DNA from: Parabacteroides sp. FAFU027 | GTDB lineage: Bacteria > Bacteroidota > Bacteroidia > Bacteroidales > UBA7332 | Length of the DNA stretch: 64,000 nucleotides | NCBI RefSeq assembly: GCF_022808675.1 | Contig: NZ_JAKZKV010000008.1 | Coordinates: 190,711-254,710, forward strand | Direction: 5' to 3' | In this document: positions 12,174-50,452 of the stretch, one piece after another | How the letters are laid out: each line of letters starts with the position of its first letter | Position numbering within the stretch: position 1 is the stretch's first letter | Position numbers and translations under genes: made by a program | Notes under the pieces: model-generated | What the model saw: only the letters and a program-made list of their open reading frames with translations | Told to the model about the DNA's origin: nothing | Databases searched by the model: none

Positions 12174-13745
12174 TTAGTGATTATTGAAAATAAAATACAA
12201 CACCACCATCACAATGCTCAGTATAATCCATGAAGCTCTCACTGCAAAAGCGGTCTTCATCGGAGTGAACTGAAGAGCGCTGACCTCTTCTTCTTTTTTC
12301 CTTTCCAATAAAGAATAAATGATGACGAAAACGGAAAGCAGGACAAAGAGGAAGAACGACAGATACATGAAGTGCAGACCGGTCAATATCACCTTAAAGT
12401 AGTACAAAATACCGATAATAAGACAGAATGCAGTCCCCCCCGTCAACACCCAGTTGATGGCTTTGCGCGAAGTCTTTTTCCACAATACGGCAAAGAGGAA
12501 AGTCACCGTCATCGGCGGAGCCAGAAAGCCCAGCACCGACTGGAAAACGTTGAAGAGATTCAATCCCTTGATTCCGTCAATGGCCAACGCAATGACCACC
12601 GCCACAATGGCACTTACAACAGTCACCCAACGACCGATTTTGATAATCTCGGCATTAGTGGCATTGGGTTTATGTTTTTTCAGGTAAATATCCATCGTAT
12701 AAACAGTACTCACGGAGTTGAGCGACGAACCCACATTCCCCACCAATGCCGCCAAAAGCACCACGATAATCAGCCCTTTCATCCCCATCGGGAAGAGGTT
12801 GGTCACCAGCACCAGATAAGCTTCATCGGGGTTGGTCAAATGCGGAAACAGCACAAAGCAAAGGATACCGGGAAGGATAAACAAAGGCACATCGAGTATC
12901 TTCAACCAACCGATAAAGCTTGCGCCCAATTGGCCCTGTTTGAGGCTCTTCGCACCCAATACCGACTGCACCATCGACTGCTCGGTACACCAAAACCAGA
13001 CTCCCATCACCGGATAGCCCAGCACAATGGCTAACCACGGGAAGTCTTTATCGGAATTGGGCAGGAAAAGATTCCAGTAATGCAAAGGCGTTTGATGGAA
13101 GAGTTCAGAAGGACCGCCTACTTTATAAAGACCGATTAATGTCAATGTCAGTGAAACGGCAATCAGCAACAGCATCTGGAAAACGCTGGTGTAGGCAATC
13201 GCCTTCAAACCACCGGCAGCCGTCAGTGCCGTTGCCAGCACCACCATAATCATAATGGATGTCCACATCGGGATGCCAAGAAGCTGTTTCACCATGATTC
13301 CCCCGGCAAAAAGGCCGAGCGAAAGCCAAGAAATCAGGATAGTAATCAATGTGTACCACGCGAGCAGGTGACGGGTGGACTGTCCGAAGCGTTTTCCCAT
13401 GTATTCAGGCAACGTCGAAACCTTCGCCCCCAGGTAACGCGGCGCAAAAACCACCGCCAGCATCAGGATAAAGATAAAGGCGTACCAGGCAAAATTACCG
13501 GATGCAATTCCGGTCGTGTATCCCGCACTCGCCGATGCCAACAGCATAGAGGGGCCCACATTGGTTCCCCACATGTTCAGTCCGATAGCCGGCCAACCGA
13601 GCGAGTGCTCGGCAAGGAACATATTCTCGTTCTCTTTTTTCTTTTTGATAAAACTCGCCCAATAGCCGATCCCGATCAGAACCAACATATACACGGCAAT
13701 AATAATGTAATCTAATGTCTGAAAATGACTCAGTAGGTTATTCAT
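12174..13745 (-). CDS. sodium:solute symporter (SSS family), sugar type
   Basis: This is an integral membrane protein of about 523 residues with 12-14 hydrophobic segments. Signature stretches of the SSS/SGLT family are present: TTGIASGNFAWYAFIF near the second helix, KVSTLPEYMGKRFG, TAAGGLKAIAYTSVFQ and SSLNSVSTVYTMDIY. The start is set at 13745 (MNNLLSHFQ), which leaves the usual short N-terminal lead; two ATGs lie slightly upstream. It should couple sodium entry to uptake of a monosaccharide or small glycoside across the inner membrane. It follows the Gfo/Idh/MocA and methyltransferase genes on the same strand, so it may import the sugar they act on. Confidence 0.88.
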   Translation of the reverse strand: MNNLLSHFQTLDYIIIAVYMLVLIGIGYWASFIKKKKENENMFLAEHSLGWPAIGLNMWGTNVGPSMLLASASAGYTTGIASGNFAWYAFIFILMLAVVFAPRYLGAKVSTLPEYMGKRFGQSTRHLLAWYTLITILISWLSLGLFAGGIMVKQLLGIPMWTSIMIMVVLATALTAAGGLKAIAYTSVFQMLLLIAVSLTLTLIGLYKVGGPSELFHQTPLHYWNLFLPNSDKDFPWLAIVLGYPVMGVWFWCTEQSMVQSVLGAKSLKQGQLGASFIGWLKILDVPLFILPGILCFVLFPHLTNPDEAYLVLVTNLFPMGMKGLIIVVLLAALVGNVGSSLNSVSTVYTMDIYLKKHKPNATNAEIIKIGRWVTVVSAIVAVVIALAIDGIKGLNLFNVFQSVLGFLAPPMTVTFLFAVLWKKTSRKAINWVLTGGTAFCLIIGILYYFKVILTGLHFMYLSFFLFVLLSVFVIIYSLLERKKEEEVSALQFTPMKTAFAVRASWIILSIVMVVLYFIFNNH

Positions 13746-13812
13746 GTTTTTGGTAAATGATTTCATGTGACACGACGTCACTAGCGGTTAATATTATATG
13801 TAATGCACTGCA

Positions 13813-13902
13813 GTAGAGACGCAAGATTTTGCGTCTCTATCAAAACGATAATCAAAAAATAGATTACTGACGATCATGAGACGCAAAATCTTGCGTCTCT
13901 AC
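13813..13902. repeat. paired GAGACGCAA inverted repeats
   Basis: Two palindromes of the type GAGACGCAA-GATT-TTGCGTCTC lie at 13813-13840 and 13878-13902, and each can also pair with the other. The second overlaps the last codons of the upstream oxidoreductase gene, whose stop codon lies inside it. Confidence 0.8.
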
Positions 13903-14963
13903 AAAAGATCATATTTCTCCAGAATCTCTTTAATCTTCACCGGACGGCCAAGTTCCATGGAAAGATCCATTGCCTGCATGACCGCAACAGTTCCGATACC
14001 CTCTTTCAGGTCAGGATAAGCGGTTTTACCTGATTCGAGGCAATCCACGAAATACTCGAGGTAGTTTTGATACTCTCCGGCATGGTGTGATTTCCCTTCG
14101 AAACGGAAGAAATGTTTCAGTTTATGGTCAAAAGTGATCAGTTTCTCTTCTCCGGTTTTAGTAGTGATGGCATAGCGCAAATCCATGTAGTCACCCTGGC
14201 TGCAACCTTCCGTTCCGCGGAGAATGCAGCTCATTTCACTGTCGCGCACCGTCGGCTGCACCGGCCCGGTATAGACGCCGCTTGCACGAGCCACGCGACC
14301 ATCGGCCGCCTTGAAGATAAAGTGCATCGTGTCGTTGTTCTTCAATCCACCCGCTTTACCGTTAGGGCTGAGCATTCCGTAGCCCATCACCTCTTCGATG
14401 TCGGGCAGATACCAACGTACCAAATCCACCGGATGGCTCATGCCACCGTATAACCACTTGAAGGCTTTTTCCAATGACCAGCCTTTACCCAGAAACCAAC
14501 GGTGGTCGGCGTGGTAATAAGCTTCCACAGTCACCAATTCGCCGATTTCCCCGGCTTCGAAGTCTGCACGCTGGCGTTTCATCGGTTCGAAGAAACGGCT
14601 GCTCTGGCCAACGAAGACTCTCTTGCCGCTCTTTTCGCAAAGCTCCAGCAACTCTTTGGCTTTGGCCAAATCGTCAATCAACGGCTTGGTGCACACCACA
14701 TTTTTGCCAGCCTCTAACGCCATCTTGATGTGTTCGGCATGAAACTTATCCGGTGTGTAAATGGCAATAATATCAATCTCCGGATCGCTAAGCAAATCCT
14801 GATATTCTGTTGTGTACTGGTGAAAATCGAACTCCTTGGCGCGATGTTTACACAACTCTTCGTTCCTGTCACACACTTTAACAAGCTCCAGTTTGTCACT
14901 TTGTAATGCAGCGGACATGGTGCTGCGGCCTTCACCGAGACCTAGAATTGCTATTTTTTTCAT
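13899..14963 (-). CDS. Gfo/Idh/MocA-family oxidoreductase
   Basis: This 354-residue cytoplasmic protein has an N-terminal Rossmann fold (KKIAILGLGEGRS, a variant of GxGxxG) and IIAIYTPDKFHAEH. It also has the family CTKPL motif, the equivalent of EKP, with the NAD-site Lys. The C-terminal half has the usual GGMSHPVDLVRWYLPD, with the active-site His region. The family oxidises or epimerises sugar hydroxyls using NAD(P). The gene lies between the UroD-type methyltransferase and the sodium symporter on the same strand. A sugar or inositol substrate is likely, but which one cannot be told from sequence alone. No signal peptide is present, unlike the secreted members in many Bacteroidota. Confidence 0.88.
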   Translation of the reverse strand: MKKIAILGLGEGRSTMSAALQSDKLELVKVCDRNEELCKHRAKEFDFHQYTTEYQDLLSDPEIDIIAIYTPDKFHAEHIKMALEAGKNVVCTKPLIDDLAKAKELLELCEKSGKRVFVGQSSRFFEPMKRQRADFEAGEIGELVTVEAYYHADHRWFLGKGWSLEKAFKWLYGGMSHPVDLVRWYLPDIEEVMGYGMLSPNGKAGGLKNNDTMHFIFKAADGRVARASGVYTGPVQPTVRDSEMSCILRGTEGCSQGDYMDLRYAITTKTGEEKLITFDHKLKHFFRFEGKSHHAGEYQNYLEYFVDCLESGKTAYPDLKEGIGTVAVMQAMDLSMELGRPVKIKEILEKYDLL

Positions 14964-14980
14964 GATTATATTGAATCTGA

Positions 14981-15030
14981 AGACGAGGCAGGCCTCGTTT
15001 GAATATTAAGACGAGACAGACCTCGTCTCT
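14981..15030. repeat. GACGAG inverted repeats
   Basis: Two short palindromes, AGACGAGGCAGGCCTCGT (14981-14998) and AGACGAGACAGACCTCGTCT (15009-15028), lie in tandem between the methyltransferase and oxidoreductase genes. Confidence 0.7.
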
Positions 15031-15037
15031 ACAGGGT

Positions 15038-16102
15038 TTATCGGTATTTTTCAATAATCTTCAACGCCGCATCAATGTCCTTTTCCGATTTAAAATCGAC
15101 GTTGATGTGCAATCCCTGGTTGCCGACATTATCCAACAGCGGCTCCAGCTCATCAAGAGTCACCCAGTTGGCCATGATGGATTTTCCTCCGGCAATAATC
15201 CGTTTGTACAGGTCGTACCAACGCGGGTCTCCGCCTTGCGGTTCACCCACACCAGGCGTCCATTGGATGGCGTTCAGTTCTTTGATTTCGAGCAGTGCAT
15301 CCAGGTGGCGGATAGCTCCTACCCCATCAAGATGGTAGAGTGAGTAATCCAGCTTCTGGCATTGCTCCCGTAAATAAGGCTGTGCAAACTGACGGAAATC
15401 ATCTTCCGAAATCATAATGGAGATGTCCGATTGCAGCTTAGCCACCTTGCCCGGTCCCCAGATGGAGAAATAGCAGAAGGCCATCTCTTTATCCACATTG
15501 ATAACATCGTAGATTTGGTCAAATACTTTGAACCAGATTTCATTCACCTGTTTCAACTGCTGTTCCAACACTTCGGGGCGCATAATCATGTCCATCAGCA
15601 CGGCTTCGGTTCCTCGCAGCCCGGCCAGTGTATCAAGACCTTCCACCAAGTCAGGGCAGCCTACCAGATAGCGGTTATCAGCTTTCGCACGGCAATTACG
15701 GAGCAGCTCCAGATGCAACTTAAACCACGGATTATTTTCATCGAAAAGAATATTGTCGCCCAAATCTTCCCGGTGGTTAATCCAGATAGAATCTGGCAAA
15801 CCTTCCAGGTCGGCGCCGATACAGGCGGCCAGCGAGCCCGGTCCCAAATGGGTATTAGCAACCGGCAAAATGTCGGCTTTGAAAGAACTCTTTGAGAGTT
15901 GATAGTGCAGGTTATCCGCCCGCCAGGCAGGGTCAAACCAATATTGATTGATGTCCTTTGCCGCTGCGGGTTCGGGTACTATTTCGTAAGGTGCGCCCTC
16001 TTTTTGCAGGTGTTCCCACATGCTGAGAACGATGCCTTTGCCGCTCCACCAGTCGAGGTAATGCTTTTTGGTTTCTTCGAAGTTTGATTTCCAGGTTTGC
16101 AT
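15038..16102 (-). CDS. UroD-superfamily corrinoid methyltransferase
   Basis: This 354-residue cytoplasmic protein belongs to the uroporphyrinogen decarboxylase superfamily, which includes cobalamin-dependent methyltransferases (MtaA and CmuA types). It has the TIM-barrel pattern with LVGCPDLVEGLDTLAGLRG, CYFSIWGPGKVAKLQSD, YSLYHLDGVGAIRHLDALL and IQWTPGVGEP. The methyltransferases MtaA and CmuA bind zinc with H-x-C and a distant Cys; here the site reads H257-L-D259. The haem-pathway role is unlikely given the neighbours: a corrinoid protein and a MetH-activation-like protein lie in the same series. I infer transfer of a methyl group from an O-methyl compound to the corrinoid, or onward from it. 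The direction is not known. Confidence 0.75.
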   Translation of the reverse strand: MQTWKSNFEETKKHYLDWWSGKGIVLSMWEHLQKEGAPYEIVPEPAAAKDINQYWFDPAWRADNLHYQLSKSSFKADILPVANTHLGPGSLAACIGADLEGLPDSIWINHREDLGDNILFDENNPWFKLHLELLRNCRAKADNRYLVGCPDLVEGLDTLAGLRGTEAVLMDMIMRPEVLEQQLKQVNEIWFKVFDQIYDVINVDKEMAFCYFSIWGPGKVAKLQSDISIMISEDDFRQFAQPYLREQCQKLDYSLYHLDGVGAIRHLDALLEIKELNAIQWTPGVGEPQGGDPRWYDLYKRIIAGGKSIMANWVTLDELEPLLDNVGNQGLHINVDFKSEKDIDAALKIIEKYR

Positions 16103-16118
16103 GGTATATTGTTTTTTG

Positions 16119-16325
16119 TATCACAGAGAAACACTGAGAGTTTTCACAGAGGGCCACGGAGTTAAATCTCTGCGATTCATTGTTCTGCCCTCTTTTTTCA
16201 TCTGCGACAATATTTTTCTGTTTTTATATCACAGAGAAACACAGAGTATTTTTCACAGAGGGCAACAGAGCTTAGTTCTCTGTGGTTCTCTGTGCTTATT
16301 CTCTGTGCCCCTCTGTGATACAAAT
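16119..16325. repeat. CACAGAG word repeats in inverted orientation
   Basis: Two direct copies of a block with the words ATCACAGAGAAACAC and TTTTCACAGAGGG start near 16120 and 16227. The right side of the gap (16266-16321) carries the same words in reverse complement (CTCTGTGGTTCTCTGTG). The whole 225-bp gap could fold into a long hairpin. Confidence 0.75.
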
Positions 16326-16327
16326 CT

Positions 16328-18592
16328 TTATTTCTCTAAATAAGACAGTGTTTTGAAGATTCCGTGGAAGCTTTCGTCCATCTTCACCTTAATGACTTTC
16401 TCCATATCCATCTCGTCGGTGCAACTTACCGCTTCAGGGTAAAGTGAAAGCTTCACTCCGGCTTTTACCCACACCGGCATTTCGTCGAGCGGACATTCGT
16501 AGTTGTGAAGCCAGTGACCGCCTTCGGAGAATTTACCGGAAAATAGGTTCACCCATTGTCCTTTGGGTAAATAGATATCGCGGTGGTTGTGGTCATTCAT
16601 CACCGGAGCCACCATTATATCGTCACCGAAGTAGTATTGGTCGTCGATATGCTGGCACATTTTATCATCCAGATGATGGAAAATCAGGGCGCGCAATACC
16701 GGATAACCGGTTTCGGTTGTCTTCTTACTTTGTTCCAATAAATAAGGAATCAATGCGTAACGTAGTTTCAACCATTTGCGTACGATACCCGAAATATTGG
16801 GGAATTCATACGGTTCGCGTTTTGAAGTTCCGTGGTAGCGGAGGTGCGAACTAAACACGCCGAACTGTGTCCAGCGGACATACAATTCATCCGAAATCAC
16901 GGAGTTCATAAAGTCGGGTACGCTGTGGAAGCCCGGCACATCGTGGCTCCAGAATCCGAATCCGGAGAGTCCCAGGTGCAAGCCGCCCTTCAGCGAACCG
17001 GCCAATCCGTCCCACGAGCAGGCTGCATCACCACCCCAGTGCAACGGGTAGCGCTGGCATCCTGCCCAGCCGGCACGCGCCCACACGATGCCGTCACCCA
17101 CCACCTCTTTGGTGATTTCGTAAGCGGCTTTCTGGTAAAGCAGTGCATAAAGGTTGTGCAACAACTTCGGCGCCATCGAATGGTAATCGGCATCGAGGTG
17201 AATGTCTTCACCGAAGTCGGTCTTGATGCAGACCACGCCCATATCGAGGAGTTTTTTGAGTAACCCTTTGTACCACTCCACCGCTGCGGGATAGGTAAAG
17301 TCAATGGTTCCGGCATAATCCAGCGCACCGAAGTTTGAACCATCGGTAGCGCGTTCGCCCTGTACCTTGCAGATGTAGTTGTTATCCACCGCCTCTTTCA
17401 ACTGTTCGGCGGCAAACGCGATGTAGGGCAACTGCCACAGACTCACACGGAAACCGTTATCTTTTAGCCCTTTGATGAATCCTTCCGGATCGGGGAAACG
17501 TTCGTCGTTGAACTTCCACTCGCAGAGCCAGTCGGTCTTGAACCAACCGGTATCGAGGTGAATCACATCACAGGGATAATCTTCTTTGCGAAGTCGATTG
17601 CAGATAGTCTCTACTTCATCGGCTGAGAAGTAGGTCATGCGGCTCATCCACGTTCCGAAACTCCAGAGCGGAGGCATGGTCGGGAAGCCGGTCAACTGGC
17701 GATAACCGCGAAGGATTTCTTCTGGCGAATCACCGCCAATGAGGAACAGATCCACGCAAGGTTGTTCCACCATCCACTGCACCGAACGGGTAGAGATGTC
17801 AGCGAGTGACAGTTTGGTATAAGCCGAAGTGTGCATAAATGCACCGTAGCCTTTTCCCGAAAGGTAAAAAGGTATATTCTTGTAGGTACGGCGGCTGTTT
17901 ACGCCCTGACCGTCCTGATTTTCAAGTTGCAGGGTTTTGCCGGAAAGGTCAAGCTTGGCAAAACGTTCGCCGGTGCCGCAAAAGATTTCATCAGCAGCGG
18001 CATGAAAAGCGGTCGTCATGCGGTCTGCCACTCCCTCTTTTTCCACGAAAGCCAGCGCCATCGCATCGTGGCGGGCAGGCTGAAACTGGTCGTAAGCACT
18101 GATGGGAACTGCCTTTTTGCCGTCGGGATAAAACACTACGTTGAGTGTTTCATCGGGTGCGGGAAGCAGGTCGCTCCAGTGGTCGAGTACGGGATTGGAA
18201 AGGTCGAAAACGGCTTTCTTTACGCCTTTGAAATCGGTAACCACCCAGGTTTCACCCTTGATTTCATAAGAAAGAGGATGGATGGTCAACGCCGGGTCAA
18301 GCTCCAGCATCAGCGACTCTTCGGCCACCTCTTCATCTATGCCGATGGAGAAGCGAAGAATCTTATCGCCGTAAGCACGCAGACGAAGGGTGTAATCTTT
18401 TCTTGGAATGGTGGTATCGGCAGCGATTTCGGTAGTCTGCTTTTGTGCCTGAAAAGGTACGGTCACGAGCAGGTCGCCATTCGCAGCGGTCGTGATTGCA
18501 GCGGGTTTGCAGGCACGCCAGAGGCGTTCGTTGCCTTTCCCGTCGGGGTCGAAATCGAGGAAATCGACGGTATAGTTGTGTGTTTGTCGCAT
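16328..18592 (-). CDS. cytoplasmic GH31, alpha-xylosidase type
   Basis: The 754-residue protein has no signal peptide, unlike most glycosidases in this window. It has the GH31 layout: N-terminal beta-sandwich, then a TIM barrel. The nucleophile D459 lies in CIKTDFGEDI, which has the KTDFGE form typical of alpha-xylosidases such as YicI. The acid/base D522 lies in YPLHWGGDAACSWDG. Substrate-pocket stretches VIHLDTGWF and FGFWSHDVPGF are intact. It should hydrolyse an imported alpha-xyloside (or alpha-glucoside). It sits between the corrinoid protein and the methyltransferase, so a methylated xyloside is an attractive substrate; this is inference. Confidence 0.85.
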   Translation of the reverse strand: MRQTHNYTVDFLDFDPDGKGNERLWRACKPAAITTAANGDLLVTVPFQAQKQTTEIAADTTIPRKDYTLRLRAYGDKILRFSIGIDEEVAEESLMLELDPALTIHPLSYEIKGETWVVTDFKGVKKAVFDLSNPVLDHWSDLLPAPDETLNVVFYPDGKKAVPISAYDQFQPARHDAMALAFVEKEGVADRMTTAFHAAADEIFCGTGERFAKLDLSGKTLQLENQDGQGVNSRRTYKNIPFYLSGKGYGAFMHTSAYTKLSLADISTRSVQWMVEQPCVDLFLIGGDSPEEILRGYRQLTGFPTMPPLWSFGTWMSRMTYFSADEVETICNRLRKEDYPCDVIHLDTGWFKTDWLCEWKFNDERFPDPEGFIKGLKDNGFRVSLWQLPYIAFAAEQLKEAVDNNYICKVQGERATDGSNFGALDYAGTIDFTYPAAVEWYKGLLKKLLDMGVVCIKTDFGEDIHLDADYHSMAPKLLHNLYALLYQKAAYEITKEVVGDGIVWARAGWAGCQRYPLHWGGDAACSWDGLAGSLKGGLHLGLSGFGFWSHDVPGFHSVPDFMNSVISDELYVRWTQFGVFSSHLRYHGTSKREPYEFPNISGIVRKWLKLRYALIPYLLEQSKKTTETGYPVLRALIFHHLDDKMCQHIDDQYYFGDDIMVAPVMNDHNHRDIYLPKGQWVNLFSGKFSEGGHWLHNYECPLDEMPVWVKAGVKLSLYPEAVSCTDEMDMEKVIKVKMDESFHGIFKTLSYLEK

Positions 18593-18605
18593 GAGATTTA
18601 GTTTA

Positions 18606-18736
18606 AGGAGTAAAAAGGAGTTATGGGGAGTAAATGTAGTTAGAGTAGTTAATGTAGTCAGAGGTAGTTATTGTAGCAAAGGGAAGTGCAATTCCTACTT
18701 TTACTACATGTGACTACCTATAACTACACTGACTCC
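18606..18736. repeat. AGT-word inverted repeat, downstream of the corrinoid gene
   Basis: Short words (GGAGTAAAAA, TGTAGTTAG, AGTAGTTAA, TGTAGTCAG) with AGT every 9-10 bases fill 18606-18677. Complementary words (ACTACATGTG, ACTACCTATA, ACTACACTG, ACTCC) fill 18700-18736. The two halves can pair into a long imperfect hairpin between the corrinoid and GH31 genes. Confidence 0.7.
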
Positions 18737-18746
18737 TAACTTTTAT

Positions 18747-19385
18747 TTAGCAAACGCCCAGCAGCCCTTTCGCACAGGTCACCGCTTCGTTGGCATTTTC
18801 AGAGTAGCCGTCGGCACCGATTTCCATCGCGAACTTCTGATTCACGGGAGCGCCACCTACCATTACTTTTACCTGGTCACGGACACCGGCTGAAACCAAT
18901 GCGTCAATCACCGTTTTCATGTAACCCATCGTAGTGGTCAGCAATGCTGACATGCAAAGGATATTCGGTTGCTCGGTTTTCACCACTTCCACGAATTTCT
19001 CGGCAGGAATGTCGATGCCGATGTTTACCACTTCGAATCCGCAACCTTCGAGCATGGATGCTACTAGGTTTTTACCGATGTCATGGAGGTCACCTTTCAC
19101 CGTACCGATAACCACTTTGCCAATCATCGCATTTGGGTCACCTTTTAGAAGTGGTTTCAACAGTTCGAGCGCACCTTTCATTGCACGCGCCGACATCAGC
19201 AACTGGGGAACGAAAGCTTTTCCGGCACCGAAACGTGCACCGATTTCTTCCATCGCCTTAATCATGTAGCCGTTGATAATTTCCTGAGGTGCTACGCCCT
19301 CTGCAATCGCTTCTTTGGTAATTTCTACCGCCGGTTCGAGTTTGCCGGCGAGGATTGCTTCGTAAAGATTTTGTAAGTCTGCCAT
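18747..19385 (-). CDS. corrinoid protein (methyltransferase partner)
   Basis: This 212-residue cytoplasmic protein has the two-domain form of MtaC/MtbC/MtgC-type corrinoid proteins. A four-helix cap (about 1-85) has the MEEIGARFGAGKAFVPQLLMSARAM pattern, split here across its length. It is followed by a Rossmann-like B12 domain. The cobalt-ligand motif D99-L-H101-D-I-G is intact, as are the SxL (S146-A-L148) and GG (G177-G178) elements that hold the nucleotide tail. It carries the methyl group between two methyltransferases. The UroD-type methyltransferase and the MetH-activation-like protein nearby supply two of the partners. No second, folate-linked methyltransferase is seen in the window. 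Confidence 0.93.
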   Translation of the reverse strand: MADLQNLYEAILAGKLEPAVEITKEAIAEGVAPQEIINGYMIKAMEEIGARFGAGKAFVPQLLMSARAMKGALELLKPLLKGDPNAMIGKVVIGTVKGDLHDIGKNLVASMLEGCGFEVVNIGIDIPAEKFVEVVKTEQPNILCMSALLTTTMGYMKTVIDALVSAGVRDQVKVMVGGAPVNQKFAMEIGADGYSENANEAVTCAKGLLGVC

Positions 19386-19401
19386 AGTTATTGTTTTAAG
19401 G

Positions 19402-19498
19402 AGTAAGAGGGAGTAAGAGGTCGTTATAAGTAGTCAAGGGGGAAAATGGCTGCTCCATCCTACTCCTTTTGACTACTTATAACTCATTTACTACTTAA
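19402..19498. repeat. AGT-word inverted repeat, upstream of the corrinoid gene
   Basis: Perfect 15-bp arms GTTATAAGTAGTCAA (19423-19437) and their reverse complement (19469-19483) are flanked by GGAGTAAGAG words on the left and TTTACTACTT on the right. The right edge overlaps the stop codon of the beta-helix enzyme gene. Confidence 0.8.
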
Positions 19499-21371
19499 CG
19501 CTTTTTATATCCTGATATTCCGGAGTAATGCCCGCCCTGTTCTTTATTTCCAGGGAAACATCGGGGCCGTTGTTGGTCCATTCGTTGCCGGGGCCATTGG
19601 CGTTCTGAAGAAACTTCGCCACTTCGGTCCAGTTGTCGTGGACACGGATGTAACTGGAGCCTTCATCGGTATAGAGATAGAAACAGTGTTTCGGGTCATG
19701 CGGATACGGAGCCTTGACCAGGTCATAGACACAGTTCTCGTAAATCTCCGAACCGGGCTGCGGTGACAAGGTATAGATGCCCGCCACGTCGTACATCTGC
19801 TTGGCATAATGGTGAACGAGGTTAGCGAAGACGCGGTTGTTGCGCATACAGTTCAGTCGCTTGTTCCACTGCCAACCCATGCTGATGCCGGTGTAGTAAA
19901 CGTCATATACTTCGTTGTGCTCGATGTTGATGTTGCGCACGTGGCCAGCACCGATACCGACACAGCCCCAGTCTTCGTTGGCACAGTCGGTCACGTAGTT
20001 GTTGGCGATGCGTTCGTACTGGCAAACGTCGCGCATATCCTGCGGATTGTAGGCGCGGTGAGTCTCATAAGCTTCATCGGAGAAGAGACCGATTTGCAAC
20101 CCGTTTCCTCCCATATCTTTGAAAACGCAACCTTCCACGGTATCGTAAGAAGTGCCGCGCACGAAGTCGAGTCCGGCGAAGGCCATGTGCTGGAAGACAC
20201 AACGGTTAAACGAAATGTTATTGGCATTCATCACCGTCACTCCCGCCGTGGGGCGACCCAGCCAGGCCAGGTTGGTCAGGTCGGGACGTTCGTCGGTGCC
20301 TTTTTCTTTTTCAATACTGTAAGCGTCGAGCATGTACATTCCCGCCTGCAAAGGCACGTGACCGGCACGCGACGGACGCATCCACGCTGCGTGCTCAAAG
20401 GTGATACCCTTAAACTGAATGTTTGAGACCTGACGGTCAGGGGTTCCTTTTATATTGACAATGTTTTCAAGATTCGGAGCAATGATTTCCGCCTTGTGCA
20501 TATTCTCTCCTTCGCGGGGATAGTAGTACACGAGCCCTTTCTCAAGGTCTTCGTACCATTCACCCGGCGTATTGAGGAAGCGGATAGAATTGGCGAGATA
20601 GAACGGTGAGTTTCCGTCCTTTTTAGACATAAACGGCGCGGGCCACGGGTGCTCATTCTGTACGCGGCTCTCGGGTTCGTAAAAGCTGAGGCAGGTGCTG
20701 TCTCCGTGAATCTCGACACTCTTCACGCGCAGGATGGCAATCTCCCACCACTGGTGAATAATCATTTCGAGCTGTTTGGTATCTTCCCACTTGCCGTATT
20801 TCGGAGTAGGAATCCAGCAAATCGCTTTCTTCTTGTCCCAACGAATGATACGGTTCATCTGTTGCCATTCCGGAGTCTGAGCGCGAACGGCTTTTTTATC
20901 ATTTACCCAAAGCTGACGGAATTCTAAAAGACGTCCGCCCACGCGGGGAGCTTTCGCCACCCACACTTTGCCTTGTGCCTCAGCCGGAAGTTCGGCTACG
21001 TTGCCCGCCTTCTCCCAATTGGTCACAGAAACGCCTCCTGAAATCACAGGCTTCTCCCCTTTCACCGCCTGAATCACAGTGGGAGATGTCGGGCTTCCCG
21101 AATCTTCCGGACGAATAAACAACGGCTCTTCGGAGCTATAGACTCCACCCTTGAGAAGTATATTTACCGGTTCATTGGGTTGAAGTTTATGGGTACGGCG
21201 AAGTTCGCTGCCATTGCGGAGAGCAATGATGAGAGATTTAACCGGCTGTGCCGCTGTGCCGGGATTAGCATCATCGCCTTTGGGCGAAACCCAGATGTCG
21301 GCAGCTTGTGTAAAAGTGGTACTCATGCCCAATAAAAGTAAGGCGAGGAGTGCTTTGGATTGTTTTTTCAT
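19491..21371 (-). CDS. secreted GH141-like parallel beta-helix enzyme
   Basis: About 626 residues from the ATG at 21371, where the signal peptide MKKQSKALLALLLLGMSTTF begins. An upstream in-frame ATG at 21476 would add 35 residues encoded by the 21-bp repeat array, so I do not use it. After ADIWVSPKGDDANPGT the protein has right-handed beta-helix coils: INVEHNEVYDV-like turns, RCVFQHMAFAGLD, GCVFKDMGGNGLQIG and IANNYVTDCANEDWGCVGIG. The opening and overall pattern resemble GH141 proteins, which include an alpha-L-fucosidase acting on RG-II and a xylanase. A fucose-type linkage in pectin is plausible. Other beta-helix families remain possible. Confidence 0.65.
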   Translation of the reverse strand: MKKQSKALLALLLLGMSTTFTQAADIWVSPKGDDANPGTAAQPVKSLIIALRNGSELRRTHKLQPNEPVNILLKGGVYSSEEPLFIRPEDSGSPTSPTVIQAVKGEKPVISGGVSVTNWEKAGNVAELPAEAQGKVWVAKAPRVGGRLLEFRQLWVNDKKAVRAQTPEWQQMNRIIRWDKKKAICWIPTPKYGKWEDTKQLEMIIHQWWEIAILRVKSVEIHGDSTCLSFYEPESRVQNEHPWPAPFMSKKDGNSPFYLANSIRFLNTPGEWYEDLEKGLVYYYPREGENMHKAEIIAPNLENIVNIKGTPDRQVSNIQFKGITFEHAAWMRPSRAGHVPLQAGMYMLDAYSIEKEKGTDERPDLTNLAWLGRPTAGVTVMNANNISFNRCVFQHMAFAGLDFVRGTSYDTVEGCVFKDMGGNGLQIGLFSDEAYETHRAYNPQDMRDVCQYERIANNYVTDCANEDWGCVGIGAGHVRNINIEHNEVYDVYYTGISMGWQWNKRLNCMRNNRVFANLVHHYAKQMYDVAGIYTLSPQPGSEIYENCVYDLVKAPYPHDPKHCFYLYTDEGSSYIRVHDNWTEVAKFLQNANGPGNEWTNNGPDVSLEIKNRAGITPEYQDIKSVK

Positions 21372-21383
21372 GAAATTATAACT

Positions 21384-21829
21384 TGTATTGGCATCTGCAT
21401 GGTTTACATTAATGCCTAAATGCGTTGTATTTGCTTCTTTACCAAATGTATTAGTAGCTACACATATTGTATTCATATCTTCGGGCGATGTATTGTTAAA
21501 TACTTGCGTTGTATTATTAATTACACCCGATGTATTATTAATTCCATCAATGTATTGTCAATTCCATTCAATGTATTGACAATTATCTTCAATGTATTGT
21601 CATTTCCATTCAATGTATTGTCTATTATCTTCAATGTATCGTCACCTTAATTCAATGTATCTTGAAATATCTTCAATGTATCATCTATTTCATTCAATGT
21701 ATTGTTAATTTCATTCGATGTATTCGCATCTGCAAGTGTTGTATTTGTTTCTGCTTGCATTGTATTCAGCATTTGCAGTCGTTGAATTGAATCTTCAAGT
21801 AATGTATATTCATCTTTCAACGATTGAAT
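21384..21829. repeat. 21-bp phased TGTATT array (array C)
   Basis: The hexamer TGTATT (or a near match) recurs every 21 bp: 21384, 21405, 21426, 21447, 21468, 21489, 21510 and 21531. There is one 20-bp step to 21551, then 21572 and on to 21761 in steps of 21, with weaker copies at 21782, 21803 and 21824. In the centre whole units are conserved (TCAATGTATTGTCAATTCC), contain CAAT-GT-ATTG dyads and alternate in their last four bases, giving a 42-bp higher order. Towards the edges only the hexamer stays. This accounts for nearly all of the gap between the MetH-activation-like gene and the beta-helix gene. Confidence 0.9.
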
Positions 21830-21853
21830 TACATATTGTATCGATGATATATC
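21647..21853 (-). other. 68-codon open frame with heptad pattern, possible gene remnant
   Basis: On the minus strand the array is read as heptads such as NTLNEID and DTLKIFQ, which have a coiled-coil spacing of Leu and Ile. The frame is open from 21853 to a TAA at 21647-21649. It continues open after that stop, and after the single 20-bp step it joins the frame of the beta-helix gene (repeated NNTS, NNTT and NTFGKEA). One stop and one 1-bp change therefore separate it from one long heptad-coding frame. It may be a decayed coding repeat, or a side effect of a 21-bp DNA period. No good start codon is present. Confidence 0.2.
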
Positions 21854-21863
21854 TTATTAAAAA

Positions 21864-22535
21864 TCACCGTTTCACCTTCCGCTTCACGCAATCAATCAGG
21901 TGACAGATGCCGCACTGGTAATCGCGCCATTCTACCTGATTGCCGATAGCGACAATGCCGCTGACCGACTTGATGGGGTGCATCAGGCAGGAATCATTGA
22001 GCGAAATGCCACAGAATCCTTCCGGCAAAAGGGCGAAAATAGATTTCTGTTCGGCCACACTCCATCCGCAATAGCCGGGGCTGTAGTTGTTACTGATGTT
22101 TTGCCCGATCGATAAAGCCGTTTCCCTGATTTTTTCCGTAATGTACTCTACAGCGGCTTCGGCAATCACCGAACCGATGGCATCTGCCATATAGGTATGT
22201 ACAATATCATTCAGCGACGATGCCCATTGCTCAAACTCCTCCCCCGCCGTGGCTACAAAAACGCCAAACCGAGTGGAATCATCCAGATACTTGGTGATGG
22301 TGCGCCCGGGCTTGAAAGTATGGTCTTCAATCCGAATGTGACGCGGGTCAATCACCGCTCCATCCTTCACCACATATCCTACCTGCGGCCGGCAAACCTC
22401 ATACGCCTGTTGAAGAAGATTTTCCATCATTTCTTCTACATCTTGAGTCGGTTCTGCCCCGAGATATCCCATCGTAAGCCAGATTTCACTCCGGCGGATG
22501 GATAGGTCGTGAGGGGAAAGGGTTTGTTGGTACAT
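21864..22535 (-). CDS. MetH-activation-domain-like protein (corrinoid reactivation)
   Basis: This 223-residue cytoplasmic protein is like the S-adenosylmethionine-binding activation domain of cobalamin methionine synthase, but free-standing. The key stretch YSPGYCGWSVAEQKSIFALL (151-170) matches the SPGY...EK...LL signature. It is followed by ISLNDSCLMHPIKSVSGI, like the conserved S-x-M-x-P-x-K-S-x-S-G. The C-terminus adds C208-x2-C211-x4-C216, which the MetH domain lacks and which could hold part of an iron-sulfur cluster. I infer that it reduces and re-methylates inactive cob(II)alamin on the corrinoid protein at 18747-19385, a role played by RamA-type proteins in other systems. Its gene is the first of the series that contains the corrinoid genes. 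Confidence 0.8.
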   Translation of the reverse strand: MYQQTLSPHDLSIRRSEIWLTMGYLGAEPTQDVEEMMENLLQQAYEVCRPQVGYVVKDGAVIDPRHIRIEDHTFKPGRTITKYLDDSTRFGVFVATAGEEFEQWASSLNDIVHTYMADAIGSVIAEAAVEYITEKIRETALSIGQNISNNYSPGYCGWSVAEQKSIFALLPEGFCGISLNDSCLMHPIKSVSGIVAIGNQVEWRDYQCGICHLIDCVKRKVKR

Positions 22536-26240: not shown

Positions 26241-28961
26241 TTAGTAAAAAAGCCAATCAACACTTTCCGTCTGACCCGCAGAAGTCAATCCGGCATCACG
26301 GTTTGGCATCTTCTGCTCTCCGTCAATGAAGCCAAGCAAAAGAGCGGCACCTTTACCGAGTCGGAGGGTATTGTTTCCGGCTTTGAAATAATAGCTGTGA
26401 ATATTTACCGGAGCCAAAGTCGGAATATTTAGCGCATTCATCAGCTTAGGCTCAGCTTGTCCGTAATCATTCGCACTTGCATCGGTTTCGAGCGTTGGTG
26501 CTTTGAGGAATCCGCGGTCATTACCTGTCAGGAATCCCACCAACACGTACACCGGCTTGTCGCAGGTAAACTGAATTTCGGTTGGCAAGTTGTTTTGTGA
26601 TTTGAAGCTGGTCTTCAGCGCATTCAGTTTCTTCAATTCCGGTGCAATAGTTTTGATACTGAAAGTCGTATCCGAATAAACTATTTTGCCGCCGCTCAAC
26701 GGATACTGTACAAAATCTTTCGATAGTATTTTTACGGTTGCCGGTTTAAGCGGAACAATCTCGGTAGCCTTTTTCACACCGTTATTGGCCTTCAGCATCA
26801 CGATGTTTTTCTTCAGATTGTTGTATTCTGTCTGATAGTAAGGATAAAGCTCTGCCCAGGTTTTGTTTTTACCATCATCACCACCCACCGGCACGCGACG
26901 CTGTTTGGTCTGCATACTGTTGGCATAGAGGTAAGTGTCTTTGGTCAAATCAACCAGTTTCTTGTAATGCGACAGACTGCTTTCCAGGAAAGGAACTGCC
27001 TGGTCAAGTAATGCTATATTTTTGGTATAACCATACTCAAGAATAAGCGCCGCTGCTTTTACCTTATCGGCAAAGAAATTGGCAAATTCGTTATAGCAAT
27101 AAACGTCGTTTTTGAGACGATTAAATTCATCCTTATTTTTAGTGACAAACGGAGTTGCTTTTTCGATGGATTCAACAGCAAGTTTACCGCGTTTAACGAC
27201 ATCATTGGTCACATCAAACGGTAACTCACCGATATGAGGTTGATGTTTGTTTTCTTTCTCAGCCCATTCAATCAGTTTCTCTCCTTCTGGACCACATGAT
27301 TCGTAGAATCCGGGATAGATTTTGTATTTGTACGGATTTACCAACTGGCTCATCAACATTCCCAACAAGAGAGTCTGACGGTTTCCTTCGGTGATACCAA
27401 AGCGACGAAGTAATTTAGGTGCAATCTCTCCGGTCTGCTCGTAAGCTGCCAAGATATTTTCTCCACCCTGAGCACATCCGTAGAAATCACAAAGTTTATT
27501 AGACCAATAGTTGATTTCATCTTTGCGATCACGGTGGTCGTTCCATGCATATCTCGCCCATCCCTGGTACCACATCCAGTCACGGTCCATTTCGAGCAAA
27601 CGATTTGGTGCTTTGTCGGCTGAATAAGGCCAGTCCCAGTAGGAAGCCTGTGGATAAATGTGAATCGCATTGGCACCGTGTATATTGTGCATTGCTGACA
27701 CCGACTTCTGGATAAAGTCAGGTGAACCGTAACGGAACGGCTCCAGATTAGCCAAAATGTGTACGTTCGAGATATGAACAGAACCCAAAGCACTCAGGTC
27801 TTTGTGGATTTTTGCCCATGGGCCACGCGGCTCGTATGTTGTGAGTGACTCTCCATTGTATTTGTGCATCGAGTAAAGGTTACTGTACAAAGGCAAAGCC
27901 TCTTTCATCACCATGCTCAGATCAGTATCGTGGGCACGCACTACAATCGGAGGAAGGTCTTTGGTTCCCAATGCTTTCAGACCGTCTTTTACCCCGGGTA
28001 TGATAGTTTTGCAAAACCAGTTCACATCATCTTCGTAAGTATCCATCGCCTCTCCCAGGCAAACAAGCAAGCCCACGTGAGGGTATTTTTCAATAAATGC
28101 AGCAATCGACTTTTGCGTATAATCAGCGATCAGCGGAGTAATCGGACGACTGCGGTCCTGTGTTTTAATCCCGTAATGGTCAGCAAAAGGTTTTGAAACG
28201 ATGATATTGTAAAACATCTGAATCACCCAGATACCACGTTTCTCAGCTTCTTCGGTCAGGAACTTGAACATCTCCTCATTTTTGGCAAATGTCTTGTCAT
28301 CCACCTCTACTGCAAACGGATAATCTTTCAGTTTAACCAATGAAGCAAACGGGTGACCGTTCCACAAGTAAAGCGAATTCATGCGGTTATCCACCAACAT
28401 GTCAAGGTACTTAATCCACAAGGCTTTATCGTAGAACCATGGAAAATTCTCTGGAGTATATGGATATTCATATACATCATGACCGGGCAGGTACACCGTT
28501 TTTTGCACACCGATGCAAGCGCCACGCATTACCATCTCGGGCTGATCGGTGATATTCAATGAAGCAGGCAGTTTCTTATCTTTTTTGATGCGGTCTGCCA
28601 ATTCCAGACAACCATACAGTACGCCGGATGCATCTGCACCTTTGATGATAGTAACCCCATCAGCCGACTTGATGGCAAATCCCTCTTTGGCTGGTTTTTT
28701 ATCAAAAGACAACTTCGATTTCTGAGCCAGTTTACCTGTTGTCAGATCATCCCATTCTCCTACGGCAATAACTCTTTTGGAATCAGCTTTAGCAGAAATC
28801 CTGACCTGAAAACCTGCAGATGCAAGGGACTCTTTCAAGCGTTCTACACCAAATCCGACTCTTTTCGATTTAGCTGTATCAGCAACTATAGTTACCTTTT
28901 CAATAGAAAATGAACAAAATAACAAGTATAAAAATGGTAGGTAAACCAGCAGTTTTCTCAT
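26241..28961 (-). CDS. secreted uronidase-like hydrolase with GH67N/GH20b-type N-terminus
   Basis: About 906 residues from the ATG at 28961, where a hydrophobic export signal begins (MRKLLVYLPFLYLLFCSF). The Cys in LLFC makes a lipoprotein possible. Residues about 20-140 look like the small alpha/beta domain found before the barrel in GH67 and GH20 enzymes (VGFGVERLKESLASAGF, GVTIIKGADASGVLYGCLELADRI). A TIM-barrel region follows (NSLYLWNGHPF, HVGLLVCLGEAMDTYEDD, IVVRAHDTD), then a helical part. I looked for GH115 and GH67 catalytic stretches and did not find them. A pectin uronidase is plausible from the context, but the family is not one I can name. Confidence 0.55.
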   Translation of the reverse strand: MRKLLVYLPFLYLLFCSFSIEKVTIVADTAKSKRVGFGVERLKESLASAGFQVRISAKADSKRVIAVGEWDDLTTGKLAQKSKLSFDKKPAKEGFAIKSADGVTIIKGADASGVLYGCLELADRIKKDKKLPASLNITDQPEMVMRGACIGVQKTVYLPGHDVYEYPYTPENFPWFYDKALWIKYLDMLVDNRMNSLYLWNGHPFASLVKLKDYPFAVEVDDKTFAKNEEMFKFLTEEAEKRGIWVIQMFYNIIVSKPFADHYGIKTQDRSRPITPLIADYTQKSIAAFIEKYPHVGLLVCLGEAMDTYEDDVNWFCKTIIPGVKDGLKALGTKDLPPIVVRAHDTDLSMVMKEALPLYSNLYSMHKYNGESLTTYEPRGPWAKIHKDLSALGSVHISNVHILANLEPFRYGSPDFIQKSVSAMHNIHGANAIHIYPQASYWDWPYSADKAPNRLLEMDRDWMWYQGWARYAWNDHRDRKDEINYWSNKLCDFYGCAQGGENILAAYEQTGEIAPKLLRRFGITEGNRQTLLLGMLMSQLVNPYKYKIYPGFYESCGPEGEKLIEWAEKENKHQPHIGELPFDVTNDVVKRGKLAVESIEKATPFVTKNKDEFNRLKNDVYCYNEFANFFADKVKAAALILEYGYTKNIALLDQAVPFLESSLSHYKKLVDLTKDTYLYANSMQTKQRRVPVGGDDGKNKTWAELYPYYQTEYNNLKKNIVMLKANNGVKKATEIVPLKPATVKILSKDFVQYPLSGGKIVYSDTTFSIKTIAPELKKLNALKTSFKSQNNLPTEIQFTCDKPVYVLVGFLTGNDRGFLKAPTLETDASANDYGQAEPKLMNALNIPTLAPVNIHSYYFKAGNNTLRLGKGAALLLGFIDGEQKMPNRDAGLTSAGQTESVDWLFY

Positions 28962-29030
28962 ATTATCGTATTTATTTTTATTTCCCAAACCCGTCTGCAT
29001 TTATATAAATGCCTTAACAGGAATGCAATT

Positions 29031-46081: not shown

Positions 46082-47914
46082 TTAATTCTTTTCTGTCTTC
46101 AATCCCTTGATGTAATAAACCGACATCGGGTCTGAATCTCCGGCATTCGGCACATCGTAAGTCTGGTCAGCCGGGGTATCGGGTGTAGGGAAACGACGAA
46201 TATCTCCGGTGCGGAACTGAATGCGTTTTACCGAAGCAACAGGAGCGAAGAATATTCGTGTACCGCCTTTGCCATTCACATCAATGGTATAACTGCGAGT
46301 CGTCACATCCAGTTTGACTTTGACATTGTAAGTTTCACCCGGCACATATTTCATCACAGTAGAATATCTGGAACCGGTTTTAGTGGTGATTGCACCATCG
46401 GCATCAAAAGTAATGCGGATAGGAGCTGTTCCTTTTTCCTCCAGAAACTCAATCTGCAACGTGCCTTTATCGTTTTGCATTGGCACAACACTAAATTCAG
46501 CCGACATCTGTTTGGCTTCAGGGAAAATACGTTCAGCTTTCGCAAAATCAAATTTATCCCAGTCTTTCAGGGCAAGACATTTGCCAAACTTATCGGTCTG
46601 CTCGATCTTAACCGGAGCCATTACCGGGCTGTAAATGTTCCATTTATCCAGCTCATGACCGGCTGGCATTTGGGCGAAGTTATCATTAACCGGCTGCAAT
46701 TCGGAGTCTGTAACAGGTACGGGAATCGATGAGACCCAGATATCTTCCTTATTTACGCTATAAGTTACCCACATGTTTCCGTCGGGAGGAGTACCATTAC
46801 CCTCTACAATCCCACGAGTGTATTGCGGTCCGTACGATTTGTAGTTACCGCCGTAACGCATGGGTGTGATTTCACCATGCACCAGCAACAGGTTTGTGTA
46901 ATCCAATCCATCCTGACTGACCGAAACAGCCAATGGCCAGCGGTATTCCGAAGGGTTGTAAACGGTAGCGTATTTGCCATCGGAGGTACGTTGTCCCCAA
47001 ATTTTTGCATTGCTGGTCACAACCCCGGGAGCACGACGAGCATCCTGAGGCCAGGGTTTATTAACATCGTCGATTATCATGGTCAATCCATGTTTCCACA
47101 AACCCACAACTCTGTTATCAGGCAAATGGTAAAAGCAGAAAGCTTTATACGGTTTCTTCACCGAAATAAGCGGATCATTCCGGTCACTCTCCTCTACCCA
47201 TTGCTGCACCATCAGCTTATTGCCCAGCAGCTCGTTGCAGGCAGCTACAAAACCTTTGTCTTTGCTTTTAGTGAAATACGGATAAGAGGTATTCTTCTCG
47301 TTGAAATTCGGATTATAATGGATAAAATAAATCGGTCCGAATGAACCGTCTTTCTTTATCTCACGAATAACACGTCCAAGGCCATTACCATCATTGGGAT
47401 CGTCTTTCGCATTCAACACAAAGGAATAAAATCCTAACGCAAACAAGCGGTTGCTTTTGGAAACATAAAATCCCATGCGCTGGTGCATCACCCCGTACAT
47501 GTCTTTAGTTTCACCTTCCTCACCTGGCTTTTTCAGGCCATCGGGAAGTTTATATTTTGGGAAAACAGCTTCTGGAGCACTCCAGTTGTGGCCGTCGGGG
47601 GATGTTTGCAACATGGTCTGGCAGGGAGGAATATGCTCTCCTACAGGATTGCTGATGTATTCGAGATAAAACTTGTTATTCCAATAGGCAAGCATCGGTT
47701 GGTGATTGTAGGTCCAACCATTGCCGTTAGATTTATCCGGATGCTCGCGGTTAGCCCGCATGGTCTGGATATTATGTACACCCATTGCAGGACAAAGCTG
47801 CCCGTGGTGATAATCGACATTTGACAACGTCTTGCCGCTGTAATGCACCGACTCCTGTGCTGACAAAATTCCCAGCGACAGTGACAATGCTGATAATATG
47901 ATTAGCTTTTTCAT
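46082..47914 (-). CDS. secreted sialidase-fold (six-bladed propeller) protein
   Basis: 610 residues with the signal peptide MKKLIILSALSLSLGILSAQ. Residues about 25-430 have propeller blades rather than a pectin-lyase helix: WTYNHQPMLAYWNNKFYLEY, MLQTSPDGHNWSAPE, GFYVSKSNRLFALGFYS, WGQRTSDGKYATVYNP and AVSVSQDGLDYTNLL. The S-x-D-G-x-x-W pieces recall Asp-box turns of sialidases. The last 180 residues form a second beta-sandwich (MSAEFSVVPMQNDKGTLQIE) like a concanavalin-type domain. Related proteins are common in rhamnogalacturonan loci, but I cannot name the reaction. The gene precedes a pectate lyase gene and follows a GH43 gene on the same strand. Confidence 0.6.
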   Translation of the reverse strand: MKKLIILSALSLSLGILSAQESVHYSGKTLSNVDYHHGQLCPAMGVHNIQTMRANREHPDKSNGNGWTYNHQPMLAYWNNKFYLEYISNPVGEHIPPCQTMLQTSPDGHNWSAPEAVFPKYKLPDGLKKPGEEGETKDMYGVMHQRMGFYVSKSNRLFALGFYSFVLNAKDDPNDGNGLGRVIREIKKDGSFGPIYFIHYNPNFNEKNTSYPYFTKSKDKGFVAACNELLGNKLMVQQWVEESDRNDPLISVKKPYKAFCFYHLPDNRVVGLWKHGLTMIIDDVNKPWPQDARRAPGVVTSNAKIWGQRTSDGKYATVYNPSEYRWPLAVSVSQDGLDYTNLLLVHGEITPMRYGGNYKSYGPQYTRGIVEGNGTPPDGNMWVTYSVNKEDIWVSSIPVPVTDSELQPVNDNFAQMPAGHELDKWNIYSPVMAPVKIEQTDKFGKCLALKDWDKFDFAKAERIFPEAKQMSAEFSVVPMQNDKGTLQIEFLEEKGTAPIRITFDADGAITTKTGSRYSTVMKYVPGETYNVKVKLDVTTRSYTIDVNGKGGTRIFFAPVASVKRIQFRTGDIRRFPTPDTPADQTYDVPNAGDSDPMSVYYIKGLKTEKN

Positions 47915-50398: not shown

Positions 50399-50429
50399 AT
50401 TATTTTGTTTTTGTTTTCTACAAATAGAA

Positions 50430-50452
50430 TGTTGAACCCTTTCAGGGTTCAA
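50430..50452. repeat. short palindrome GTTGAACCCT
   Basis: GTTGAACCCT-TTC-AGGGTTCAAC lies upstream of the GH140-like gene. A partial copy (GTTGAACCCTTTCCGGGTTC) lies at 26173-26192 upstream of the large GH2 gene. Confidence 0.7.

Follow-up and report, generated by a model that had tools for sequence, protein, structure and literature searches.

Corrinoid-dependent proteins of the UroD superfamily include a group of O-demethylases and dehalogenases (MtvB, OdmB, VdmB, MtoB and CdmB) in which a first methyltransferase with the UroD fold acts together with a separate corrinoid protein and the methyl donor is a methyl ether or a halide; for O-methyl donors no His-Cys-Cys site is expected. We describe here a run of seven genes (positions 12174-22535) within a 64,000-nucleotide stretch of DNA from Parabacteroides sp. 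FAFU027, referred to as a whole as the window, in which a UroD-fold protein and a corrinoid protein are built into a locus that appears to serve the degradation of the pectin rhamnogalacturonan II (RG-II). The set is predicted to be a novel form of the known corrinoid methyltransferase systems, and it quite probably carries out the corrinoid-dependent O-demethylation of an RG-II sugar. Unlike its described relatives, the UroD-like protein of the window is too divergent for the Pfam URO-D family, it lies in a sugar locus instead of one for aryl ethers or chloromethane, and the system has neither a RACE activase nor a recognised linked folate methyltransferase. No corrinoid demethylation of sugars was found in the open-access literature that we searched, which makes this a weak negative.

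Other described systems share parts of the set. In the MtgBCDE system of marine bacteria, an MtgC-type corrinoid protein is common to demethylation and homocysteine methylation, and glycine betaine demethylation is coupled through it to methionine synthesis (PMC12478193); MtgB, however, is of the MttB family (PF06253), the activator is RamA and the donor is a quaternary amine. The type 1 mlp clusters (Kountz and Balskus, PMC10418091), which are widespread in anaerobes, also combine UroD-family and corrinoid proteins, but they encode several Mlps with His-Cys-Cys sites, a RACE protein and sulfur genes, whereas the window has an HLDG motif, a PF02965 activator and glycosidases. The homocysteine, corrinoid and activation domains of MetH have counterparts in the system described here, but MetH joins them with a pterin domain in one protein, whereas the window encodes separate B12-binding and activation proteins and the host keeps a real MetH (one intact copy of 1234 amino acids, on contig 13). 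The RG-II polysaccharide utilization locus of Bacteroides thetaiotaomicron (BT1002, BT1012, BT1020) is similar to the window in its GH141, GH140-like and BT_1020-like enzymes. This organism cleaves every RG-II linkage but that of 2-O-methyl-D-xylose-alpha-1,3-L-fucose, which it leaves uncut and which accumulates in the medium (PMC7939467), whereas the window locus adds a GH31 glycosidase, an SSS-family sodium/solute symporter and the corrinoid set.

The original prediction held that three parts of a corrinoid system are interleaved on one strand with genes for a GH31, a Gfo/Idh/MocA oxidoreductase, an SSS transporter and a GH141, and this arrangement is confirmed by Pfam and NCBIfam models and, for the UroD-type protein, by fold. 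All seven genes lie on the minus strand, intact and at the positions first given, with intergenic gaps of 74-387 bases. In the order of transcription they encode a MetH-activation-domain-like protein, proposed as corrinoid reactivator (21864-22535); the GH141 (19491-21476); the corrinoid protein, a candidate methyl carrier (18747-19385); an alpha-xylosidase-like GH31 (16328-18592; PF01055, 5e-87); the UroD-fold protein, proposed from Foldseek, AlphaFold (AF2) and a motif alignment as the corrinoid-dependent O-demethylase, or first methyltransferase (MT1; 15038-16102); the Gfo/Idh/MocA oxidoreductase (13899-14963; PF01408, 1.5e-25); and the SSS symporter, a candidate importer of a methylated disaccharide (12174-13781; PF00474, 4e-51; TIGR00813, 1.5e-73). 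A signal peptide was seen by eye on GH141, following an internal start (MKKQSKALLALLLLG...), and none on the GH31, the UroD-like protein or the Gfo/Idh protein; the fucosidase is therefore likely exported, and the others would reside in the cytoplasm or the inner membrane.

The assignment of the protein at 15038-16102 as a UroD-type methyltransferase stands by fold but not by sequence. It matches no Pfam family at E ≤ 10 and does not reach the PF01208 gathering cut-off, nothing was found for it in NCBIfam or, by phmmer, in the PDB, and its identity to known UroD members is about 10%. Of 25 relatives, no more than 5 show any match to URO-D, the best at E 0.025, and a profile search of the PDB gave a sub-threshold match to CdmB alone (E 0.37). 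The AF2 model built from the 25-sequence alignment has a mean pLDDT of 94.6, and all 24 PDB matches found with Foldseek at E ≤ 1e-3 are of the UroD, MtbA or MetE superfamily (UroD/MtbA matches with TM about 0.6, best E 1e-8), among them the Methanosarcina mazei methyltransferase 4AY8, which we take to be of the MtbA/MtaA type. The quality of the model and the uniformity of these matches therefore identify the protein, at the level of predicted fold, as a member of the UroD superfamily.

S-methyltransferases of the superfamily have a His-Cys-Cys zinc site, whereas in the O-methyltransferases one or both Cys are changed to carboxylates or non-ligands (PMC10418091). In place of the HxCG zinc motif, the UroD-like protein has H257-L-D259-G, a motif shared without exception by all 25 aligned sequences, and it lacks the third Cys, so that the zinc site of MtaA, MtbA and Mlp proteins is not found in it, as far as residues can be matched in a weak alignment. 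The hhalign comparison of the UroD-like and MtaA-like profiles is not significant, and the MAFFT alignment, in which HLDG falls within one column of HNCG, is suggestive only. In the MtaA-like partner proteins H227xC229 and C309 are invariant (alignment A2). The HLDG motif suggests a Cys change of the kind reported for O-methyltransferases, and we count it toward a role as O-demethylase.

The two other parts of the corrinoid system proved to be as first described. The corrinoid protein has an intact GDLHDIG motif, with the DxHxxG required in three-component systems, and matches PF02310, PF02607 and 1Y80 (6e-60); its closest type is MtgC/MtbC, which it fits better than MtaC, and besides MetH it is the sole B12-binding_2 protein of the host genome. 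The activation protein matches PF02965 (1e-12) and, over residues 6-196, 1J6R (1.8e-4); the only other PF02965 domain of the genome is inside MetH, and a RACE-type activase (PF14574) is absent from it, so the predicted activator is of the MetH type, not RACE. Proteins resembling CobW/G3E-style GTPases, recognised by eye from a GFLGSGKTT N-terminus, recur beside corrinoid and activation genes (L082:9089-10021, L083:5748-6644, L087:8759-9664, L089:3775-4686) and may be metal or cofactor chaperones.

To describe the surroundings of the UroD-like protein we used a scan of GTDB genomes, which gave 24 loci, a sample of 295 genomes of the order with 7 clear carriers, host included, and neighbourhood counts within 10 kb of the homologue at 28 loci. 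The recurrence of the three parts beside GH31, SSS and GH141 genes, on which the original prediction turned, is found: a GH31 is present at 26 of the 28 loci, an SSS gene at 24, GH141 at 15, a corrinoid protein, free or fused, at 14, the activation protein at 14 and a Gfo/Idh protein of at least 50% identity at 8. Across the order sample, 5 of the 7 carriers also have this GH31 (Fisher p 2e-8, or 7e-7 without the host's own genome), and all 7 have a non-MetH corrinoid protein, compared with 44 of the 295 genomes (p 1e-6); these p-values are upper-end guides and not exact, because genomes of one order are related. The association of the UroD-like protein with GH31 and SSS is more than chance. 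A corrinoid protein separate from MetH, free or fused, occurs in 27 of 27 genomes checked that have the UroD-like protein, and a standalone PF02965 protein in 24 of the 27.

The GH31-UroD-SSS core is kept across Bacteroidales genera and the remaining neighbours vary; even a distant homologue of 30% identity (genome G169, locus L049) adjoins a GH31. Of the two loci without a nearby GH31, one is at a contig end (L048), and in the other the contig continues (L044); in G219, from the same genus, the syntenic contig stops just past the GH31. A profile search across the phylum (396 genomes) gave two weak homologues besides the host and no others, which points to a rare family with a patchy distribution. 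Two further neighbours were observed. L022:6882-7598 and seven other loci encode a protein that appears to be secreted and whose C-terminal domain resembles rhamnose mutarotases (PF05336); in L022 and its relatives its gene lies immediately upstream of the GH31. In Sunxiuqinia, the gene between Gfo/Idh and SSS (L026:12884-13627) encodes a dioxygenase-like protein, matched by methylphosphonate and ectoine hydroxylase models, that is a possible oxygen-dependent alternative.

The choice of methyl donor depends on the RG-II context. By gene content the window is an RG-II locus, with an apiosidase (GH140-like; minus strand, 48992-50452; PF13204, 2e-114), a BT_1020-like beta-propeller protein (minus strand, 46082-47914; PF24067, 5e-122), GH127, several GH78 and GH2 enzymes, GH141 and an orthologue of the GH138 alpha-galacturonidase BPa0997 of chain A (minus strand, 26241-29000; 6HZF/6HZE, E = 0). 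The GH141 (PF21231, 2e-65) is homologous to BT_1002 over its full length (5MQP, 714 bits over residues 57-658, E 2e-213) and by this similarity is the BT1002 orthologue, a predicted alpha-L-fucosidase of chain A. BT1002 takes chain A down to 2-O-methyl-xylose-alpha-1,3-fucose (PMC7939467), the disaccharide that B. thetaiotaomicron cannot split. The GH31 resembles the alpha-xylosidase YicI (about 362-370 bits), with which it shares both catalytic Asp, nucleophile and acid/base, and it scores 479 bits against the PRK10658 alpha-xylosidase model, under the 606 cut-off.

A GH31, a symporter and an O-demethylase are the parts needed to use this disaccharide, and we infer from this that the donor is 2-O-methyl-xylose of RG-II side chain A, to which we give somewhat better than an even chance. 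The original prediction spoke of a methylated sugar and pointed to the 2-O-methyl-xylose and 2-O-methyl-fucose of RG-II; an RG-II methyl sugar remains the best candidate, now narrowed to one by the chain A enzymes GH141 and GH138. The same machinery could also act on 2-O-methyl-L-fucose of chain B, which RG-II contains and GH139 releases (PMC12282258), or on another plant methyl sugar, the more so as the UroD-type proteins form a diverse group that is also encoded beside other glycosidases, such as GH38 in L070. We consider this unlikely, since the linked glycosidases of known target are chain A enzymes, the core contains an alpha-xylosidase-like GH31, and a separate set of UroD, RhaM and RhaT genes in RG-II-type loci is the better candidate for a 6-deoxyhexose. 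Pectin loci also release methanol, and corrinoid methanol systems are known (PMC13391211). Such systems, however, rely on MtaB, which belongs to another family. No MtaB was recognised in the window, the corrinoid protein is nearer to MtgC/MtbC than to MtaC, and a methanol donor would not explain why a cytoplasmic GH31 and a sugar symporter accompany the set. Methanol freed by pectin methylesterases thus seems a very improbable donor.

The methyl group was first proposed to pass to folate, with a second methyltransferase that is not in the window. The second methyltransferase is indeed missing there, and two candidates lie elsewhere in the host genome, but transfer to folate is not supported. 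In four homologues of 970-1017 amino acids the UroD-like, homocysteine-methyltransferase and corrinoid domains are fused (L039:9977-12919, L040:10001-12913, L044:8441-11398, L045:7851-10904); these resemble MetH with the pterin domain exchanged for the UroD-like domain, and a Pfam scan of one of them (L039) gave no pterin domain. In L025, L027 and L046 the UroD-like gene adjoins a free homocysteine methyltransferase with 60-68% identity to that of the host, and in L082, L084 and L085 another such enzyme is encoded next to the corrinoid gene, which is unlinked there. Because of the four fusions, the free enzymes at other loci and the host orthologue elsewhere in the genome, homocysteine is a more likely acceptor than folate, which is disfavoured. 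An MtaA-like protein replaces or accompanies the homocysteine methyltransferase in nine UroD-like loci and is absent from 10 of 29 genomes tested. Most simply, either enzyme would deliver the methyl group to homocysteine, which we regard as the likely acceptor.

O-demethylase and betaine systems of bacteria normally pass the methyl group to tetrahydrofolate (PMC13222342, PMC12478193), from which it would be oxidised or assimilated as C1. For the present system we think this route improbable, given the homocysteine domain of all four fusions, the missing pterin domain of the scanned one and the free homocysteine methyltransferases that accompany the set; no folate methyltransferase was recognised near any UroD-like homologue, although the genome was not searched for a standalone PF00809. 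On host contig C3 (L002:1420-3116) the MtaA-like gene is followed by one that by eye resembles an MTA/SAH nucleosidase, a neighbour that would fit a homocysteine or thiol role for the MtaA-like protein.

The MetH-type activation protein and the homocysteine fusions would also suit a methionine synthase, split or accessory, or a thiol methyltransferase that lies in the polysaccharide utilization locus by chance; sugars would then not be substrates of the UroD-like protein. Methionine synthases that are split and use a corrinoid protein of the MtgC type are known (PMC5764234, PMC12478193), and free corrinoid proteins are present in many genomes without the UroD-like protein. The intact MetH of the host nevertheless speaks against such an explanation, as do the missing His-Cys-Cys thiol site and the GH31 and SSS neighbours that the UroD-like gene retains even when the corrinoid gene is elsewhere, and we judge it distinctly improbable.

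For O-demethylation of an RG-II sugar, we infer the following reactions from the gene content, conservation, fold, co-occurrence and fusions observed. Exported GH141 would release 2-O-methyl-D-xylose-alpha-1,3-L-fucose from side chain A, the SSS symporter would import it, and the cytoplasmic GH31 would cleave it to fucose and 2-O-methyl-xylose. The UroD-fold protein would then transfer the methyl group from the sugar oxygen to the corrinoid protein in its Co(I) state, leaving xylose, and methyl-Co(III) would methylate homocysteine to methionine by way of the unlinked homocysteine methyltransferase or the MtaA-like S-methyltransferase, while the MetH-activation-like protein would rescue oxidised Co(II). 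The scheme in its entirety, as a corrinoid-dependent module built into RG-II catabolism, has in our view about an even chance of being right.

Several observations weigh against it. The scheme assigns no step to the Gfo/Idh gene. The nearest solved homologue of the GH31, 5F7C (1135 bits), presumably B. thetaiotaomicron BT_0339, was deposited as an alpha-glucosidase, so possession of this type of GH31 may not suffice. Seven loci whose flanks are complete (L020, L021, L023, L028, L030, L042, L047) have no corrinoid gene within about 10 kb; there it is unlinked. Genome G208 has the GH31-SSS pair without the UroD-like protein, and the glycosidase may therefore function even where no demethylation follows. 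In the host itself, both the single free homocysteine methyltransferase (C1:513689-514522) and the single MtaA-like His-Cys-Cys methyltransferase (C3:138370-139281) are unlinked to the locus, MetH is intact as well, and L039 and L040 have both a fused homocysteine domain and an MtaA-like gene. G208 also lacks any B12-binding_2 protein; we rejected it as a clean negative control and use it as a partial one, since it keeps the activation protein and an MtaA-like gene.

Outside the system, the corrinoid protein has its closest relatives in L070, L071 and L072, where they sit with other UroD proteins, the activation protein and the MtaA-like protein. In L070:1013-9854, genes for a GH38 alpha-mannosidase-like protein, an MFS transporter, a UroD, a corrinoid protein, an MtaA-like protein and an activation protein form one run, possibly a methyl-mannose system. 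In a more distant genome, L081:3114-12690 carries corrinoid, activation, homocysteine-methyltransferase, RbsD/FucU, lyxose-isomerase-like and GH31 genes with three UroDs, and has the appearance of a full operon for the demethylation of a methyl-pentose. A second UroD-type family, 57-82% identical and with the motif HSCG (L021:13746-14792, L023:13933-14976, L027:11062-12081, L030:12765-13880, L031:12853-13890, L075:11654-12688, L082:3377-4411), adjoins a 107-residue RhaM-type mutarotase and a RhaT-type transporter in L027, L030, L031 and L082 and is near RhaT in L023; its candidate substrate for demethylation is a 6-deoxyhexose, for example 2-O-methyl-fucose.

Together these loci suggest a scheme in which a different UroD serves each methyl sugar and the corrinoid parts are shared. 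We tentatively propose, at somewhat less than an even chance, that anaerobic Bacteroidota have a general and undescribed route for O-methyl sugars, in which interchangeable UroD-fold O-demethylases, each with its own glycosidases and importer, feed a shared corrinoid protein with a MetH-type activator and methionine as product, and in which the GH31 and UroD-like protein supply the missing last step of RG-II breakdown. RG-II is a pectin common in the diet, and the model gut degrader fails to split only its 2-O-methyl-xylosyl-fucose; the genes predicted here to cleave and demethylate this disaccharide offer a direct target. If the prediction is true, the range of corrinoid O-demethylation would grow beyond aryl ethers, methanol, amines and haloalkanes to include sugars, and fibre breakdown in anaerobic Bacteroidota would be linked to the supply of vitamin B12 and methionine.

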